From positions 1 through 23,069 of IMG/VR virus record IMGVR_UViG_3300042880_000450: DNA of 23,069 nt; one strand, given 5' to 3'. This document shows, one piece after another, positions 765 to 18,238 of the stretch. Made by a program: the position numbers and the translations under genes. The stretch's first letter is position 1. Every line of letters begins with the position of its first letter. The notes under the pieces are model-generated. The model did not search any database and was not told the DNA's origin. It saw nothing but the letters and a program-made list of their open reading frames with translations. This stretch comes from a virus.

Positions 765-854
765 TTCTATTTTTCATAGTATATTTGTTTATTTTTTAAT
801 AAGTTTACGAAAAATTTGTATATATATCAATATAATAAACATTTAATTTGAATT

Positions 855-1040
855 ATGTTAATAGTTAAGGTAAGAAAAAATGAAATTGAGAAGGCTCTTA
901 AAGAATTAAAGAGTAAGGTAATTAAAACAAGACAGAATAGTTTTCTAAATGATCGAAAAGAATACAAAAAAAAATCTGTCGTAAAAAGACAGATTTTAAA
1001 TAAAGCTATATATAGAGAAAAATTTAAAAATAAAAATTAA
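855..1040 (+). CDS. rpsU: Phage-encoded ribosomal protein bS21
   Basis: A 61-residue, strongly basic protein. It starts MLIVKVRKNE, continues with a helix (IEKALKELKSKV), and ends with KKSVVKRQILNKAIYREKF. This follows bS21 from end to end: an N-terminal V-[KP]-V-[RK]-x-[NG]-E strand, two helices, and a K-x-S-V-V-K-R segment as in Bacteroidetes bS21. bS21 binds the 30S platform near the anti-Shine-Dalgarno sequence and affects initiation. In Flavobacterium ribosomes bS21, with bS18 and bS6, helps hide the anti-Shine-Dalgarno. The gene is on the plus strand inside a minus-strand head block. It converges on the next gene so closely that both stops use the same TTAA (1037-1040). No Shine-Dalgarno sequence or convincing host promoter is visible upstream. 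Confidence 0.88.
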   Translation: MLIVKVRKNEIEKALKELKSKVIKTRQNSFLNDRKEYKKKSVVKRQILNKAIYREKFKNKN

Positions 1041-1766: not shown

Positions 1767-1775
1767 ATAAATATT
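1767..1775 (-). promoter_or_regulatory. ATATTTAT motif before the 238-residue gene
   Basis: AATATTTAT on the coding strand, 13 bases before the ATG at 1753, overlapping the portal gene's TAA. Same spacing class as the copies before the protease and terminase. Confidence 0.5.
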
Positions 1776-3573
1776 ACCCATTTAACAATTTATCTAACTC
1801 ATCTGAAATTTCCCCTAAAGAATTATTTTTATTGTTGTTAAAATACTCGTCAAACGATGTATTATTATCCTCGAATAATAAACCTAATTTTTTTGGTGTT
1901 ACCTCATCAGCTAACGGTTCTTCAGGTCCTGGAGGTGGTGGAGGTGGTGGTGGAGCTCCTCCACCCATAGGTGGTGGTGCTGATGGTCCACCCTCTGTTG
2001 GGGTTGTCGGTTGTGTACTACCTGTAACAGTCTTATATAGCCTATCCACATTATCAAATATCCCAGTTCTGGTAATAACCGTTGCGGTATTGTCAAGTTC
2101 AGCTGAAATAGCTCTTTCCATCCTAATTTGATTAATGTCAAGTTTAATATCCTCATCTGACATACCAAGAATATGTTTCTTAGCCCATGTCGCTGACGTT
2201 GGTTGGATTGATTTAGGTATCTCACCCACACAATCCTTATACAATAACATTTTTTCCTTCCACACCTCAACCATTAATAGGTCAGCTTGTTTAGATGGAT
2301 TTGTTAACCCTAAAGTAAAGTTCTGTAATTCATCCTCAAACCCCATAAGGAATAGGTGAATAATTGCCACTTTATTTAGTTCAGCCAAAATACTTTTTTG
2401 TATTTTATTTATTGTTCTAGCGAATCTAATATCAAGTAATGATAGATTTTTACCATCACCAACAACCTCCTCAAAACCTAAATAAGCTTTTGGTATTCTT
2501 AACGCGGTTACTAATTTCTTTTGGATATACTCAATATCTGCGATTTCAGATAGGTTCTGAGCTCCTTGTAATGTTTCTATTGGCATTGTTTGTGCTGGGT
2601 CCCTAACCGGAATAAAATAATCCTGGTCAACCGCCATTTGGTTAAAACGTAAATCAACATTTCCGGTTTTTGAATCGACAACCTGATCACGTTTAAATTT
2701 ATTCGCTACACGTTGTACATAAGCCTCAACGTCTTTGTCATCCATGTTACCAACATAAACTTTAAATACCCTACGTTCCGGTGCTCTCGATGTTCTATAT
2801 ATTAACATAGCGTCCTCAGCTAGTACAAGTTGTTTCCATATACGTCTAGCTTTCTCCAACATAGATGTACCGTATGGTAATTTCCTATCATCACCCAGTA
2901 ATCTAAAATGAGCTATTTCCCAAGTGTTGAATTCCATATCCTTGGCTTTCCAGTGGAATCTAACACCTTTAGCTTTCGGGTCCGGTGACGAATTTACCGC
3001 CATAGCTTCCGTACCCCTCTCTAAACGTTCAATTTCGATATTTGGTAATTGTATACACCCAACAATACCCTTTTCCTGATCTAATTTAAGATATACAAAG
3101 TTATCACCATATTTACATGTATTTCTAATCCACATTTGTAGATTGGTATTAATATCTAATGTATTGTTAAATAAATCAGCTAATATACCTTTAATTCTTT
3201 TTGATTCGGAATATATTTGTAGTATATGTCCATCTTGATTTGGTGTGGTTGATTCCTCGGAATATATGTCCAACGCAGTTGATATTTCGGGAGTATACTC
3301 CATTGATTCGTAATCGTAAAACGCTGCTATACGATTTGGTTCATAATAAACCGCTTGGGTGTATAGATTATTCTCAACCTTTTGCCATTGACTAGATAAA
3401 TAAAAAGACTGTTGAAGTTGGAGTTTCTCCCTTTCATAAGTTTCTTTGTCCGTGGTTTTTAATAGTTCCTTTTTGTCAAACTTATATGACGGATAATCCA
3501 TACCCATTAAAGAGTTTGGTCCAAATGTCTTGGATAGTTTCTGCCATATTGTTAAATTTTTATTTTGTTCCAT
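1774..3573 (-). CDS. Portal protein, T4 gp20-like
   Basis: A 599-residue protein of the size and layout of T4-type portals, the dodecameric ring at the head vertex through which DNA is packaged. Recognisable parts are the early helix with a YEPNRIAAFYDYESMEY segment and TPEISTALDIYSEEST (T4 portals have a comparable 'YPEIDLAIDEI' segment), the central WKAKDMEFNTWEIAHFRLLG region, and the LRIPKAYLGFEEVVGDGKNL segment before the long crown helix. Terminase and prohead protease on either side support the call. The C-terminus is odd: after about residue 515 it becomes Pro/Gly-rich with a run of eight prolines, then an acidic tail ending SDELDKLLNG. Such a tail is probably disordered, and poly-proline slows translation. 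Confidence 0.9.
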   Translation of the reverse strand: MEQNKNLTIWQKLSKTFGPNSLMGMDYPSYKFDKKELLKTTDKETYEREKLQLQQSFYLSSQWQKVENNLYTQAVYYEPNRIAAFYDYESMEYTPEISTALDIYSEESTTPNQDGHILQIYSESKRIKGILADLFNNTLDINTNLQMWIRNTCKYGDNFVYLKLDQEKGIVGCIQLPNIEIERLERGTEAMAVNSSPDPKAKGVRFHWKAKDMEFNTWEIAHFRLLGDDRKLPYGTSMLEKARRIWKQLVLAEDAMLIYRTSRAPERRVFKVYVGNMDDKDVEAYVQRVANKFKRDQVVDSKTGNVDLRFNQMAVDQDYFIPVRDPAQTMPIETLQGAQNLSEIADIEYIQKKLVTALRIPKAYLGFEEVVGDGKNLSLLDIRFARTINKIQKSILAELNKVAIIHLFLMGFEDELQNFTLGLTNPSKQADLLMVEVWKEKMLLYKDCVGEIPKSIQPTSATWAKKHILGMSDEDIKLDINQIRMERAISAELDNTATVITRTGIFDNVDRLYKTVTGSTQPTTPTEGGPSAPPPMGGGAPPPPPPPPGPEEPLADEVTPKKLGLLFEDNNTSFDEYFNNNKNNSLGEISDELDKLLNG

Positions 3574-4349: not shown

Positions 4350-4358
4350 ATAAATATT
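4350..4358 (-). promoter_or_regulatory. ATATTTAT motif before the Thr-Pro linker gene
   Basis: AATATTTAT on the coding strand, only 4 bases before the ATG at 4345 and overlapping the terminase stop. If it is a promoter core, transcription from it would start inside the gene, so here it may instead be a relic or serve another role. Confidence 0.35.
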
Positions 4359-6129
4359 ACTTACCACCAAATAACCAACCGTATTTAACGTAGTCACTTT
4401 TGGAAGCTTCCGTCACTTGTCGACCATATCTGTCATGTTTAACATTGACGTTTGGTAATGTGGGATTAAAATACACCTCATTTGCCACCGTTTCGTTATG
4501 AGCCACTGACCACGAATCCAACATCTTTTTTGTGTGTTCAGTTACACGTTCTAATTTTGAAAATGACGATTCCCCGACATATATCGGCATTGATATCCCC
4601 ATTATTAAGTCATCATGTTGACCTTTCTGGTGATCCGGTCGACCATTCATATAAATGAATGTATTCATTTCATTGTATAACCTAACACTACGGATCTTAA
4701 ACTTATGTCTAACATACTCCTCAAAAGCTGCGACAATCTGAACCCGTTTATTATTAAAATTTATACCTGGTATCTTTTCACCAGCTTTTGGATTATACGA
4801 CCAGATATTCGTACTATCCACACCATCAATGTACATATTTTTATAACCAAGTTCCTGCATTTTTCTTACCGTAGTAATACCCATACCACCCGTAATATCG
4901 ACAACCACAAAACATGAGTACATTGTACCCCACTTATAAGCGATTTCAGCTAAAGTATCCGGTGGAATTTTACCCAAGTACTCCAGTACCTGTTCACGTT
5001 CATCAAAATCGATAATTTGTATTGAACTAAAGTCGTCACTATCACCTCTGGATACATCAATACCCATAATATACTTGTGACCTTGTTCCGGTTCTTTCCA
5101 AATCCAAAGAGAATTACCCATAAGTTTAGTAATAGGTTCCATTATAGTATTCTCTTTTATATATTCCAATTGTTTTGAATCAAATACGTTGTCCCCAGAT
5201 CCAAGAAACTCACAATTTAACTCCTGATTTATTTTTCTCTTATCATATTTTAGTTTTTTAACCATTTTTTCATACCATGTTGAACATGGTTTATATCCTT
5301 GGTTAAATAATCCCTGTAACTCGTTATAATCACGTTCAAACGGATCCACATGTTCAAATGAAATATTCTTGGAATGATCCCTTTCCGACTTATTTAATAA
5401 ATAATCGACCATATCATCAGTTGGTACCAAAAATAAGTCTTTGGAATACCTAGGGTCTCTCCACCAGAACATCTCAGATATTTTAAACTGATTCATTCCC
5501 TTAACCGCTTGGTTATAGATTTCATAATAGATTGGATCAAATCCGTTTGGGGTCGATACCACAATAACTTTACCACCCGTAGATAGTGAAGCCATACAAG
5601 CTGCCCAGAAATCCCCATCAGCTTCGATAAACGCGGCCTCATCAAATACAAGTATCGTGGGGGTGTATCCACGAAGGGCATCCCTAGATGTCGCAACCGC
5701 TTTAACTTCACACCCATTTGTTAACTTATAATGTCTTTGTGAGTTTTTATCCTGGGAGAACCCCGTACCAACCCATTTTGGCCACTGATCGATGAACGAT
5801 CTAATTTTGTTCGCCATCTCCATTGAGGTATCCAATTTGTTGGCGATTATTAGAATTTTTTCCGGTCTTTCCTTTTTAGCGAAAACCAGTCTCTTTGAAA
5901 CCCAAGCTGCGGTTACTGTTGATACACCAGCTTGACGATATTTAAGTGCGATATTTTCCTCATATTCCTCGTAGTCGCTCAATAGTGAAACTTGGTCTGG
6001 GAATAGTTCTAAAGGTACATATCTCGATACGGTATTGTCATATGTCTGTAAGTAGGTTCTTAACGCGTACGGAGTGTCTTTCATACATCGAACATACTCC
6101 AACATTAATTGTTCTTTTGATAAACTCAT
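4357..6129 (-). CDS. terL: Large terminase subunit (packaging ATPase and nuclease)
   Basis: A 590-residue protein with both terminase domains. The N-terminal ATPase has a variant Walker A ([11 protein letters not shown], about 61-71), in which the lysine precedes RQ rather than standing in GK[ST], a known form among phage terminases. It also has Walker B (ILVFDEAAF, 159-167) and a coupling motif (VVSTPNG, 190-196). The C-terminal RNase H-like nuclease has three acidic clusters: [10 protein letters not shown] (D357), VVVDITGG (D411) and QHDDLIMG (D506/D507). It cuts concatemeric DNA and drives it into the head through the portal. It follows a terminator hairpin and an ATATTTAT motif, so it probably starts its own transcript covering the head genes. 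No small terminase is recognised in the window. Confidence 0.96.
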
Positions 6130-11434: not shown

Positions 11435-13492
11435 ATGATTGAATACGTAGATGATGGTGACAAGAACAAAAAGAAATCAGAGAGTGGGACCCCAGTTCTA
11501 GACAACTTTAGTAAGGATTTAATAAAACTAGCTGAACAAGGTAAGTTAGATCCGGTAATTGGACGACAAAGTGAAATTTTTAGAATAGCTCAAATCCTAT
11601 CCAGAAGAAAGAAAAATAACCCAATTATTATTGGTGAACCTGGAGCTGGTAAAACAGCGATTGTTGAGGGGTTAGCTATGATGATTCACAACGGGGAATG
11701 TCCTAAAAATTTAATGGATAAGAGAATTGTTTCCCTGGATATTAACTCAATTGTCGCTGGTACAAAATATCGTGGACAATTTGAGGAAAGAATGAAGGTT
11801 ATTATTGAGGAATTACAAAACACAACCAATATCATTCTTTTTATTGATGAAATCCACACAATGGTTGGTGCTGGGAATAGTTCCGGATCCCTGGACGCTT
11901 CAAACATATTTAAACCAGCGTTATCAAGGGGGGAGATTCAATGTATTGGAGCTACAACCCTAGATGAATACCGAAAACATTTTGAAAAAGACGGTGCTCT
12001 GGAGAGAAGATTCCAAAAAGTTATTGTTGACCCTTCATCAAAAGACGAAACCTTTGAAATTTTAAAGAGGAGTAAGTCAAAATATGAAGAACACCACAAA
12101 GTACATTATTCCGATGAATCACTTTGGTTGTGTGTTGAGTTAGCTGATAGGTATATCACTGATCGTGAGTTCCCGGATAAAGCTTTTGACATCCTGGATG
12201 AGGTTGGGTCAAGAATGCAGATAGATATTAAATTACCAGAGGTAATTGAAAAACTAAAACAGGAAGCTCAGGACATTAAAAAGGAAAAAGTTGATGTGAT
12301 TAAAAAACAAAATTACGAACAAGCTGCTGAACTTAGGGATCGTGAAAGAAGTGTGGTGTTAAAACTAGAAGATGAAAAGAAAAAATTTGAACTTGAGTTA
12401 TTAAGTAGTAAAAGAGGTATTCCAGAAGATTTAATTTATGAGGTTGTGTCGAATATGACTAAAATTCCTGTAAGTAAGTTGAATGTGGATGAGAAAAATT
12501 CATTGATCAGTTTGGAGTCCTCATTAAATCTAAAGGTCATCGGACAAGAGGAAGCTGTATCTAAAATATCAAAATCTATCCGTAGAAACCGTATCGGGAT
12601 TAAAGATCCAAATAGACCTATCGGTTCATTTATATTCTTAGGTTCTACTGGTGTTGGTAAAACATTTTTAGCTAAACAATTAGCTAAAGAAATATTTGGT
12701 AGTGAGGATAGTTTAATTCGTGTTGACATGTCCGAATACCAGGAAAAACACACAATTTCAAGGTTGATTGGATCACCCCCAGGATACGTTGGTCACGAAG
12801 AAGGTGGACAATTAACCGAACAAGTTAAAAACAAACCATATTCTGTGATATTATTTGATGAGATTGAAAAGGCTAATAAAGACATATTTTCAACATTATT
12901 ACAGATGTTGGATGATGGTCATATAACAGATAGTTTAGGTAGAAAGATTAACTTTAAAAATTGTTTAATCATCATGACATCAAATATCGGTGTTAAAAAA
13001 TTACAAGATTTTGGTACCGGTGTAGGGTTTAAAAGTAATATTAGTGAAACAATTCAGGAAGAACACAAACGTGACGTATTAAAGAAGGAATTGAGTAAGT
13101 TTTTCGCTCCCGAGTTTTTAAATAGGATTGACGATGTAATTATATTCAACTCACTTAAAAAAGATCATGTTGATAAAATTGTAAAACTGGAAATTGATAA
13201 GTTAATCGAGAGACTAAAGTCCATGAAATACAATTTTACGTATGAGAATTCTGTTACTGAGAAAATATCTGAGGTTGGGTTTGATGAGCAATTCGGTGCT
13301 AGACCAATTAAACGAGCTATTCAGGATAAGATTGAGGATCTAATATCTGAGAAGATATTAACTGGTGACGTTACTGAGGATAGAGAGTATATGTTGTTTG
13401 TCAAAAAAGAAAACGATGAATTGGTAATTGATTTGGAAGAAAGATCAAAACCGGAACCAAAAAAACGTGGTAGAAAGAAAAAGGAGGATTAA
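11435..13492 (+). CDS. clpC: ClpC-like double AAA+ unfoldase lacking the N-domain
   Basis: The protein has 685 residues from the ATG at 11435; an in-frame TTG at 11405 would add ten. It contains two AAA+ modules. D1 has Walker A GEPGAGKT (67-74), pore loop KYRG (111-114) and Walker B LFIDE (135-139). D2 has Walker A GSTGVGKT (403-410), pore loop GYVG (450-453), Walker B LFDE (473-476) and sensor-2 GARP (621-624). A short linker with a UVR-like KKQNYEQAAELRDRE (290-304) separates them, as in ClpC and unlike the long ClpB middle domain. FGTGVGF (526-532) supplies the VGF tripeptide that docks on ClpP. The usual N-terminal adaptor domain of about 145 residues is missing. A Lys/Arg-rich tail closes the protein. 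It likely feeds substrates to host ClpP; no clpP gene is in the window. Confidence 0.93.
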   Translation: MIEYVDDGDKNKKKSESGTPVLDNFSKDLIKLAEQGKLDPVIGRQSEIFRIAQILSRRKKNNPIIIGEPGAGKTAIVEGLAMMIHNGECPKNLMDKRIVSLDINSIVAGTKYRGQFEERMKVIIEELQNTTNIILFIDEIHTMVGAGNSSGSLDASNIFKPALSRGEIQCIGATTLDEYRKHFEKDGALERRFQKVIVDPSSKDETFEILKRSKSKYEEHHKVHYSDESLWLCVELADRYITDREFPDKAFDILDEVGSRMQIDIKLPEVIEKLKQEAQDIKKEKVDVIKKQNYEQAAELRDRERSVVLKLEDEKKKFELELLSSKRGIPEDLIYEVVSNMTKIPVSKLNVDEKNSLISLESSLNLKVIGQEEAVSKISKSIRRNRIGIKDPNRPIGSFIFLGSTGVGKTFLAKQLAKEIFGSEDSLIRVDMSEYQEKHTISRLIGSPPGYVGHEEGGQLTEQVKNKPYSVILFDEIEKANKDIFSTLLQMLDDGHITDSLGRKINFKNCLIIMTSNIGVKKLQDFGTGVGFKSNISETIQEEHKRDVLKKELSKFFAPEFLNRIDDVIIFNSLKKDHVDKIVKLEIDKLIERLKSMKYNFTYENSVTEKISEVGFDEQFGARPIKRAIQDKIEDLISEKILTGDVTEDREYMLFVKKENDELVIDLEERSKPEPKKRGRKKKED

Positions 13493-16538: not shown

Positions 16539-16923
16539 GGGGGTGTTTATGGATTTGACAGGTATTGGCTGGAGAATAAGGGCATGTGGGGACTGAATTA
16601 ATCCCCTTAAAAACTGATTCAGAAAACAACTGGCAATGTGCTAAACAAAATGGAAACTCTTGGTTTACTAAGAGGTTCTGAAGTTACTGTAGCTTAAGAA
16701 GTTTACGGAAACGGGGGGTCGGTGGACATACAACCTAGCAACAGAAGTCTTTACAAAGGTGGATCACGACTGAACCCTAAATCGAGTCGTCCATTGGTTG
16801 TTGATTTACGATGGTGAAGAACAAATTAACTATTTTGGGGTATTAGAAAATACCAACCTAAACATGTAGTCCTTACCTTACGGGGTATTATGGACGAGGG
16901 TTCGAGCCCCTCCACCTCCACCA
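16539..16923 (+). ncRNA. ssrA: tmRNA (transfer-messenger RNA), one-piece, 385 bases
   Basis: Both tRNA-like ends are present. The 5' GGGGGTG (16539-16545) pairs with CACCTCC (16913-16919), followed by the discriminator A and an encoded CCA (16921-16923). The conserved GATTTGACAGG D-arm segment lies after the acceptor. The T arm is GAGGG-TTCGAGC-CCCTC, and the conserved AACATGTAG helix segment precedes it. tmRNA is charged with alanine, enters stalled ribosomes with SmpB, and adds a degradation tag. The most plausible tag frame starts at GGC 16632 after CAACT and ends with GTA GCT TAA at 16697. It encodes 21 residues, beginning GNVLNKMETL and ending SEVTVA, instead of the usual ALAA end. No smpB is in the window, so host SmpB is presumably used. 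Confidence 0.95.
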
Positions 16924-17292: not shown

Positions 17293-18238
17293 AAGTTGTT
17301 TTCCAGTAAATTAATTTGATAAAAAAAGGTTGAGATTACACCTGTTATTGAGAACCTTTGGAAGGATTATTGTTTCCCTTCGTATCCACCATCTTTTGAA
17401 CGGTATTTCTCAGTGACGGTTATTTAAGTGAACCACTCTTTGAGGTTTGATCTACTCTCCTATTACTTAACTCTCTCCGAGAATGCCTTCCCAGTTGATC
17501 CTTGCGAGATTAGAGGTCTTTGGTAAAAATACACTCAGACTTGGGGTCCTTATGTGCAACGAACAACTCGTTACTAGGTAGTCACCTTTCGACCAAACCT
17601 GACGGACACTTTTCCTTTCTGTAGTTTAATAATAGATTTATTACTTTCCATAAAGTTTTTGTGTCGTGGATTGTGAAAGTAGTGGTCCGTCTCGAGATTC
17701 GTTATCTTTTGAACAACAAAATACCCAACTACCCTCTGAAATGTCCCCATTTCCATATTTTAAGACTACTTCGAAACAAATCCCTTGGTAGGGATTTATT
17801 AAGGACAATTTCAGCACCACCTGTTTGTTGTCATACCTTTCGGTTTTAAGTATCCTTTAATATTGGAATACGTAATTGTAAATTTGGATAACTTACTTCT
17901 CACATAATTCCTACGGGTTATTCCTATTGGGGTTCCCCCCTCAATCAGATGACCCACATCACCTAATCATAAGATCACTTTCCCTACACCGTTGGCCTCG
18001 GTACTAAAGATCTTATGGTATCCCGCTTGTGTACTCGACCTCAATGATCCGGAGACCATTAAGACGCAAATCAATTTGACAGTTGATTCACTTTATCCCA
18101 CTTTCGTGGTTTATTTAACGACTATACACAGCCAATTATCGTTTATCAGTTCCTGGTGTTTGTCCCGAAGGATCTAACCGTACTCCTGAACGGATAATTT
18201 CTTAATTTTCAAAGAACGTTTCGGACTTTTCCGAATTC
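17267..18238 (-). ncRNA. Giant structured non-coding RNA, about 970 bases (GOLLD/ROOL-like or new class)
   Basis: No credible gene lies here, yet the minus strand has a full host-type promoter at one end and a perfect terminator at the other. The minus-strand RNA is full of stable local structure. There is a 5' hairpin TTCGGA-AAAG-TCCGAA (18220-18235). Tetraloop hairpins include CCAC-GAAA-GTGG (18098-18109), ACC-GAAA-GGT (17835-17844), GGGG-GGAA-CCCC (17929-17940), TCC-TTCG-GGA (18163-18172) and AATGGTC-TCCG-GATCATT (18043-18060). Longer hairpins are AAATCCCT/AGGGATTT (17778-17797) and GTAACGA/TCGTTGC (17556-17574). Long-range helices are CATAAGATC/GATCTTATG (18009-18017 with 17968-17976) and GACGGAC/GTCCGTC (17685-17691 with 17601-17607). 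GNRA and UNCG loops appear on this strand, not the other. Phage-borne RNAs of such size and ornateness are known as GOLLD and ROOL; class membership cannot be settled by eye. Confidence 0.85.

Follow-up and report, generated by a model that had tools for sequence, protein, structure and literature searches.

A phage bS21 gene without the Shine-Dalgarno sequence that marks flavobacterial rpsU

Introduction

The ribosomal protein most commonly carried by phages is bS21. Five clades (a-e) of Bacteroidetes myoviruses encode it on the reverse strand amid the genes for the large terminase subunit (TerL), portal, prohead protease and MCP, where it lies between two conserved hypothetical genes, is transcribed late and at a high level, and has a conserved aromatic residue at position 54 together with a divergent end to helix 1 (Chen et al. 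2022, PMC9723584). A bS21 from the Pelagibacter phage HTVC008M has been shown to enter Escherichia coli ribosomes (Mizuno et al. 2019, PMC6375957).

In Flavobacterium johnsoniae, bS21 helps to hide the anti-Shine-Dalgarno (anti-SD) sequence of the ribosome (McNutt et al. 2023, PMC9976891). Nearly all host mRNAs of Flavobacteriales are SD-less, with A+T-rich leaders, and typically rpsU alone carries a strong SD (PMC9976891). This extended SD (9-13 bp of pairing) drives autoregulation, since ribosomes lacking bS21 are better at translating rpsU, with its SD, and poorer at translating SD-less messages, as established experimentally in F. johnsoniae (PMC9976891). The same work lists bS21 paralogues in other phyla and none for Bacteroidota, and speculates on a phage protease directed against host bS21.

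The window analysed here is a 23-kb contig of a lake phage (IMG/VR IMGVR_UViG_3300042880_000450; 23,069 nucleotides), referred to below as the contig. Its bS21 gene belongs with those that Chen et al. 2022 (PMC9723584) described, and the gene arrangement is thus already published; what is new is that the phage bS21 gene is without the SD by which the host limits its own rpsU.

Results

Identity and Fold of the Phage bS21

An open reading frame of 61 residues with an ATG start lies at positions 855-1040 on the plus strand, flanked by minus-strand head genes. The initial annotation had read it as a bS21 homologue, and the reading frame, profile matches, and PDB sequence and fold searches agree in supporting this. 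Pfam PF01165 (Ribosomal_S21) matches the protein at E 1.3e-5 over profile positions 2-54 of 55, and TIGR00030 at E 5.9e-5. The profile search therefore finds a full-length, collinear match, with the minor qualification that the contig protein on its own scores slightly below the curated bS21 thresholds (25.2 bits against 27 for PF01165 and 22.8 against 28.95 for TIGR00030); the PF01165 cut-off is exceeded by six of eight related phage proteins tested (30.7-38.7 bits). The top matches in a search of PDB sequences are bS21 chains, including 9i5v (4.5e-5) and that of F. johnsoniae (7jil, 5e-4). An AlphaFold model (pLDDT 92) consists of the three helices expected of the family (residues 11-25, 27-34, and 40-60), and all eight matches in a PDB fold search with this model are ribosomes, with weak E-values (0.9-10) for a protein that is small and helical; from their size and position, the matched chains appear to be bS21. 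The product of 855-1040 is thus a bS21, with predicted binding to the 30S platform.

Genomic Context and Selection

The head block on the minus strand includes a T4-like portal protein (1774-3573), the large terminase subunit (4357-6129) and, cut by the contig end, the 5' part of a prohead (head maturation) protease (1-275; phrog_207, E 1.3e-5; Peptidase_S77, E 0.015, below the cut-off). The bS21 gene sits between two hypothetical genes of the same strand as this block, a divergent neighbour of 155 residues (297-764) and a convergent neighbour of 238 residues (1037-1753), whose stop codon overlaps that of bS21 by 4 nt. An opposite-strand bS21 between two flanking hypotheticals, the aromatic at position 54, the divergent helix 1 and AT-richness are all shared with clades a-e (PMC9723584).

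Relatives in IMG/VR numbered 256 through a bS21 search and hundreds through a terminase search, the latter including relatives with a TerL 80-99% identical to that of the contig. In every fetched locus having both genes, bS21 is opposite in strand to the terminase, and both flanking hypotheticals are present in nearly all fetched loci. A median pairwise dN/dS of 0.21 places phage bS21 under purifying selection. Three relatives (L150, L155, and L158) have nevertheless lost the gene while keeping its neighbours, so that bS21 is not indispensable. In L150 (11329-11903) a start stub remains (MLIINVK, then a stop) and a different reading frame occupies its place, and in L155 (6673-6741) and L158 (6497-6565) the remnant consists of the C-terminal part only, with stops.

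Nearly every phage bS21 gene has the 155-residue neighbour next to it. This protein shows strong conservation (55-70% identity) and yields a confident α/β model. Its sequence had no match in the PDB, and a PDB fold search gave none under 0.001. A viral fold search with the model produced one good match, to an uncharacterised myovirus protein. Pfam searches returned weak noise only, and an identity as Phage_RpbA (3 of 24 members, best E 0.046) was rejected as part of that noise.

The closest cellular bS21 proteins among genome_contigs, in a set picked by likeness to phage bS21, are almost all from Flavobacteriales, and the nearest cultured terminases include those of Flavobacterium phages, at 27% identity. 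The bS21 kinship and the literature indicate that the phage probably infects Flavobacteria.

Conserved Residues and Phylogeny

Tyr53 of the contig protein corresponds to Tyr54 of F. johnsoniae, the residue that stacks on the anti-SD. The equivalent position is aromatic in all 58 distinct phage bS21 proteins (47 Tyr, 6 Phe, and 5 His), and the protein is accordingly of the Bacteroidia type. The initial annotation had pointed out that bS21 in Bacteroidetes helps to occlude the anti-SD. This conservation also bears on a possible role away from the ribosome, such as packaging into virions or control of phage messages through RNA binding. The gene does sit in the head block, packaging has been raised by Chen et al. 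(PMC9723584), and bS21 has been reported elsewhere in a non-ribosomal RNP (PMC12054373). An aromatic that contacts the ribosome would be needless there, however, and its retention in 58 of 58 proteins makes such a role highly improbable.

At the end of helix 1 the phage proteins have a KSKVIKTRQN-type sequence, with [KR]T[RK]Q in 58 of 58, in place of the RKFDKTGT of hosts. In a phylogeny that includes cellular copies they form a single long-stemmed clade (support 99/97, and 99/96 in a second tree). A phage bS21 that merely restored supply, as a spare copy to meet a shortage of host bS21 late in infection and with specificity and rpsU unaffected, would be in keeping with the conserved C-terminal residue and with the poor initiation of bS21-lacking ribosomes on SD-less messages (PMC9976891). 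A host-like copy would suffice for this purpose, yet the phage proteins are a separate clade with a signature of their own, and we regard simple resupply as a possible but doubtful explanation.

Descent of the phage bS21 from an SD-less host paralogue was also considered and set aside. The grouping that suggested it (98/85) came from a tree of hits resembling the contig protein, and with an unbiased sample the AU test does not reject a grouping of the phage proteins with SD-bearing copies (p = 0.21). Such descent is therefore not claimed. Many chromosomal SD-less bS21 proteins do share with the phage copies KKS in place of KPS.

Shine-Dalgarno Contrast between Phage and Host

Computed against an assumed Bacteroidota-type 16S tail (AUCACCUCCUUUCU), as opposed to one taken from a host sequence, pairing revealed no SD among 132 phage bS21 leaders (median +1.6, best -4.7 kcal/mol), whereas the same computation gave about -17.5 kcal/mol for canonical flavobacterial rpsU. 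Pairing stronger than -13 kcal/mol, taken as the mark of the extended SD of an autoregulated rpsU, was found neither in the contig (-0.9 kcal/mol) nor in any of the 132 leaders. The lack of SD extends to the contig at large. Its 21 gene starts pair more weakly (median -1.0, best -5.9 kcal/mol) than mock upstream windows (-2.0 and -8.1 kcal/mol), and the leaders are A+T-rich and SD-less, in line with the earlier statement that the phage mRNAs mostly lack SD sequences.

From this it had been proposed that a phage bS21 could bias ribosomes toward phage mRNAs. That part of the initial annotation is not supported, because nearly all flavobacterial host messages are SD-less too (PMC9976891) and SD-lessness cannot separate phage from host. 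Ribosomes replete with bS21 should therefore favour phage and host mRNAs alike, and host rpsU is the only message shown to be disfavoured by them. A preference for phage over host, if any, would need the changed N-terminal helix, by which phage bS21 would recruit phage messages over those of the host (Chen et al. 2022). The fixed end of helix 1 in the phages, and its divergence at the same site in Chen et al. (PMC9723584), speak for such message choice. No phage-specific leader element was found, however, the contig leaders being of the same A+T-rich, SD-less type as reported host leaders (PMC9976891), and we consider message choice unlikely.

A sample of Flavobacteriaceae taken without regard to phage was then used for the host side, with 40 genomes read. 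A single bS21 gene was read in 19, with the SD in 16 of these. The other 21 have two or three, and in each of these 21 genomes exactly one copy bears the SD. A strong SD thus marks one bS21 copy per multi-copy genome, and the phage copy resembles those that stand outside the autoregulatory loop.

Several further bS21 genes are recorded here as observations in their own right. Of the Flavobacteriaceae genomes sampled (G028-G069, loci L257-L366), about half have a second or third bS21 that is SD-less. In Psychroflexus (G003, G005, and G006) the single bS21 gene is SD-less. The 735-kb phage LR756501 (locus L306) differs from the clade of the contig in that its bS21 has an SD of moderate strength (-12.1 kcal/mol).

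A Hairpin within bS21 and an Upstream Box

A 10-bp hairpin, AAAATCTGTC-7-GACAGATTTT, lies at 971-997 inside codons 39-48 of bS21, and is followed on the minus strand by a T-tract. On that strand, the convergent gene (1037-1753) reaches its stop ∼40 nt before the hairpin. A terminator scan of the contig found 5 against 3.0 expected, among which the hairpin alone is not significant, and under synonymous recoding it reaches only P = 0.018. Because the contig by itself gives such weak statistics, the case for the hairpin is carried by its relatives. It is present in 28 of 63 distinct phage bS21 sequences and missing in 35, counts that are inflated by relatedness. At position 42, 28 of the 63 coding sequences use GTC, a rare codon for Val (6% usage), and codon 46 is CAG in all 28 of these and in only 1 of the 35 others. 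Loop codons vary among relatives, and one stem pair is altered on both sides, from AAA..ATT to AAG..ACT (22 and 6 sequences; 5 of 17 distinct segments), probably in a single event. In the decayed copies of L155 and L158, which lack at least the first third of bS21 and run into stops thereafter, the hairpin is whole. With moderate confidence, the hairpin is probably an intrinsic terminator of the opposite, convergent operon that is embedded in the bS21 code.

Upstream of bS21, the box TATATATCAA (821-830, plus strand) precedes the ATG by 25 nt. Among 53 distinct upstream regions of relatives, 50 have its core, TATATCAA, or a near variant at 10-35 nt (mostly 22-35) before the start, and in long loci the full box (or TATATTTATCAA) is intergenic solely at bS21. 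We take the box for a probable bS21 promoter or operator; a sigma-70 promoter scan gave no more hits than in shuffled sequence.

Other Features of the Contig

A ClpA/ClpC-like two-domain unfoldase (11438-13492; phrog_4871) is the only other large gene on the plus strand. A tmRNA gene (16539-16923, plus strand; Rfam RF00023, 108 bits), missed by ARAGORN, has an encoded CCA and intact acceptor and T arms, and we read its candidate tag frame as GNVLNKMETLGLLRGSEVTVA followed by a stop. Close to it is a full-length GOLLD RNA (17327-17736, minus strand; Rfam RF02032, 330 bits). The unfoldase, bS21 and tmRNA make up a small translation and protein-quality set.

Discussion

The phage gene shares with the autoregulated rpsU of F. 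johnsoniae (PMC9976891) its protein family and the residue that stacks on the anti-SD, and differs in having none of the extended SD (9-13 bp of pairing). HTVC008M likewise encodes a phage bS21 (PMC6375957), but belongs to another host phylum and is absent among the tblastn matches of the contig bS21 at E <= 1. The second bS21 genes of Flavobacteriaceae are SD-less like the phage copy; they are chromosomal, for example beside what we read as proline-synthesis-like genes, whereas the phage copy is viral. The text consulted of Chen et al. 2022 (PMC9723584) does not describe the SD contrast, the hairpin inside bS21, the box upstream of it or the decayed copies seen here.

We favour, with moderate confidence, a reading in which the phage makes a late bS21 substitute that keeps the anti-SD covered, stands outside host control and possibly switches rpsU off. 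The protein would be made late, along with the head proteins and from its own promoter, and would replace host bS21 in 30S subunits. There its conserved C-terminal aromatic would tuck away the 3' end of the 16S rRNA, and with the anti-SD covered, SD-less messages, which here include those of all phage genes, would continue to be well translated. Translation of the phage bS21 message would itself fall to ordinary ribosomes replete with bS21, and not to those lacking bS21 on which host rpsU depends. Since the gene is without the limiting SD of the host, it should escape host autoregulatory control, its SD-less message placing it outside the loop. As a counterpoint, the absence of an SD may do no more than reflect the general leader type of the phage, without selection for escape.

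Filled platforms would be expected to shut down translation of host rpsU, a likely consequence of their occupancy, and new ribosomes would then take up phage bS21. It is conceivable, and we put it forward tentatively, that the phage exploits the host feedback in this way, with an unregulated, SD-less bS21 filling the 30S platform, rpsU silenced, and the ribosome pool converted without a protease. Silencing of rpsU by the circuit would make the phage protease speculated on by McNutt et al. (PMC9976891) unnecessary.

The benefit that a phage draws from bS21 has so far been framed as message bias, a published idea without a known signal in hosts whose own messages are SD-less. The contrast between the sampled copies of the phage clade, none of which has an SD, and multi-copy host genomes, with one extended SD each, turns this into a simple reporter question in F. 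johnsoniae, for which strains with rpsU'-gfp are already available. The results further indicate that roughly half of the Flavobacteriaceae sampled carry an additional, SD-less bS21 on the chromosome.
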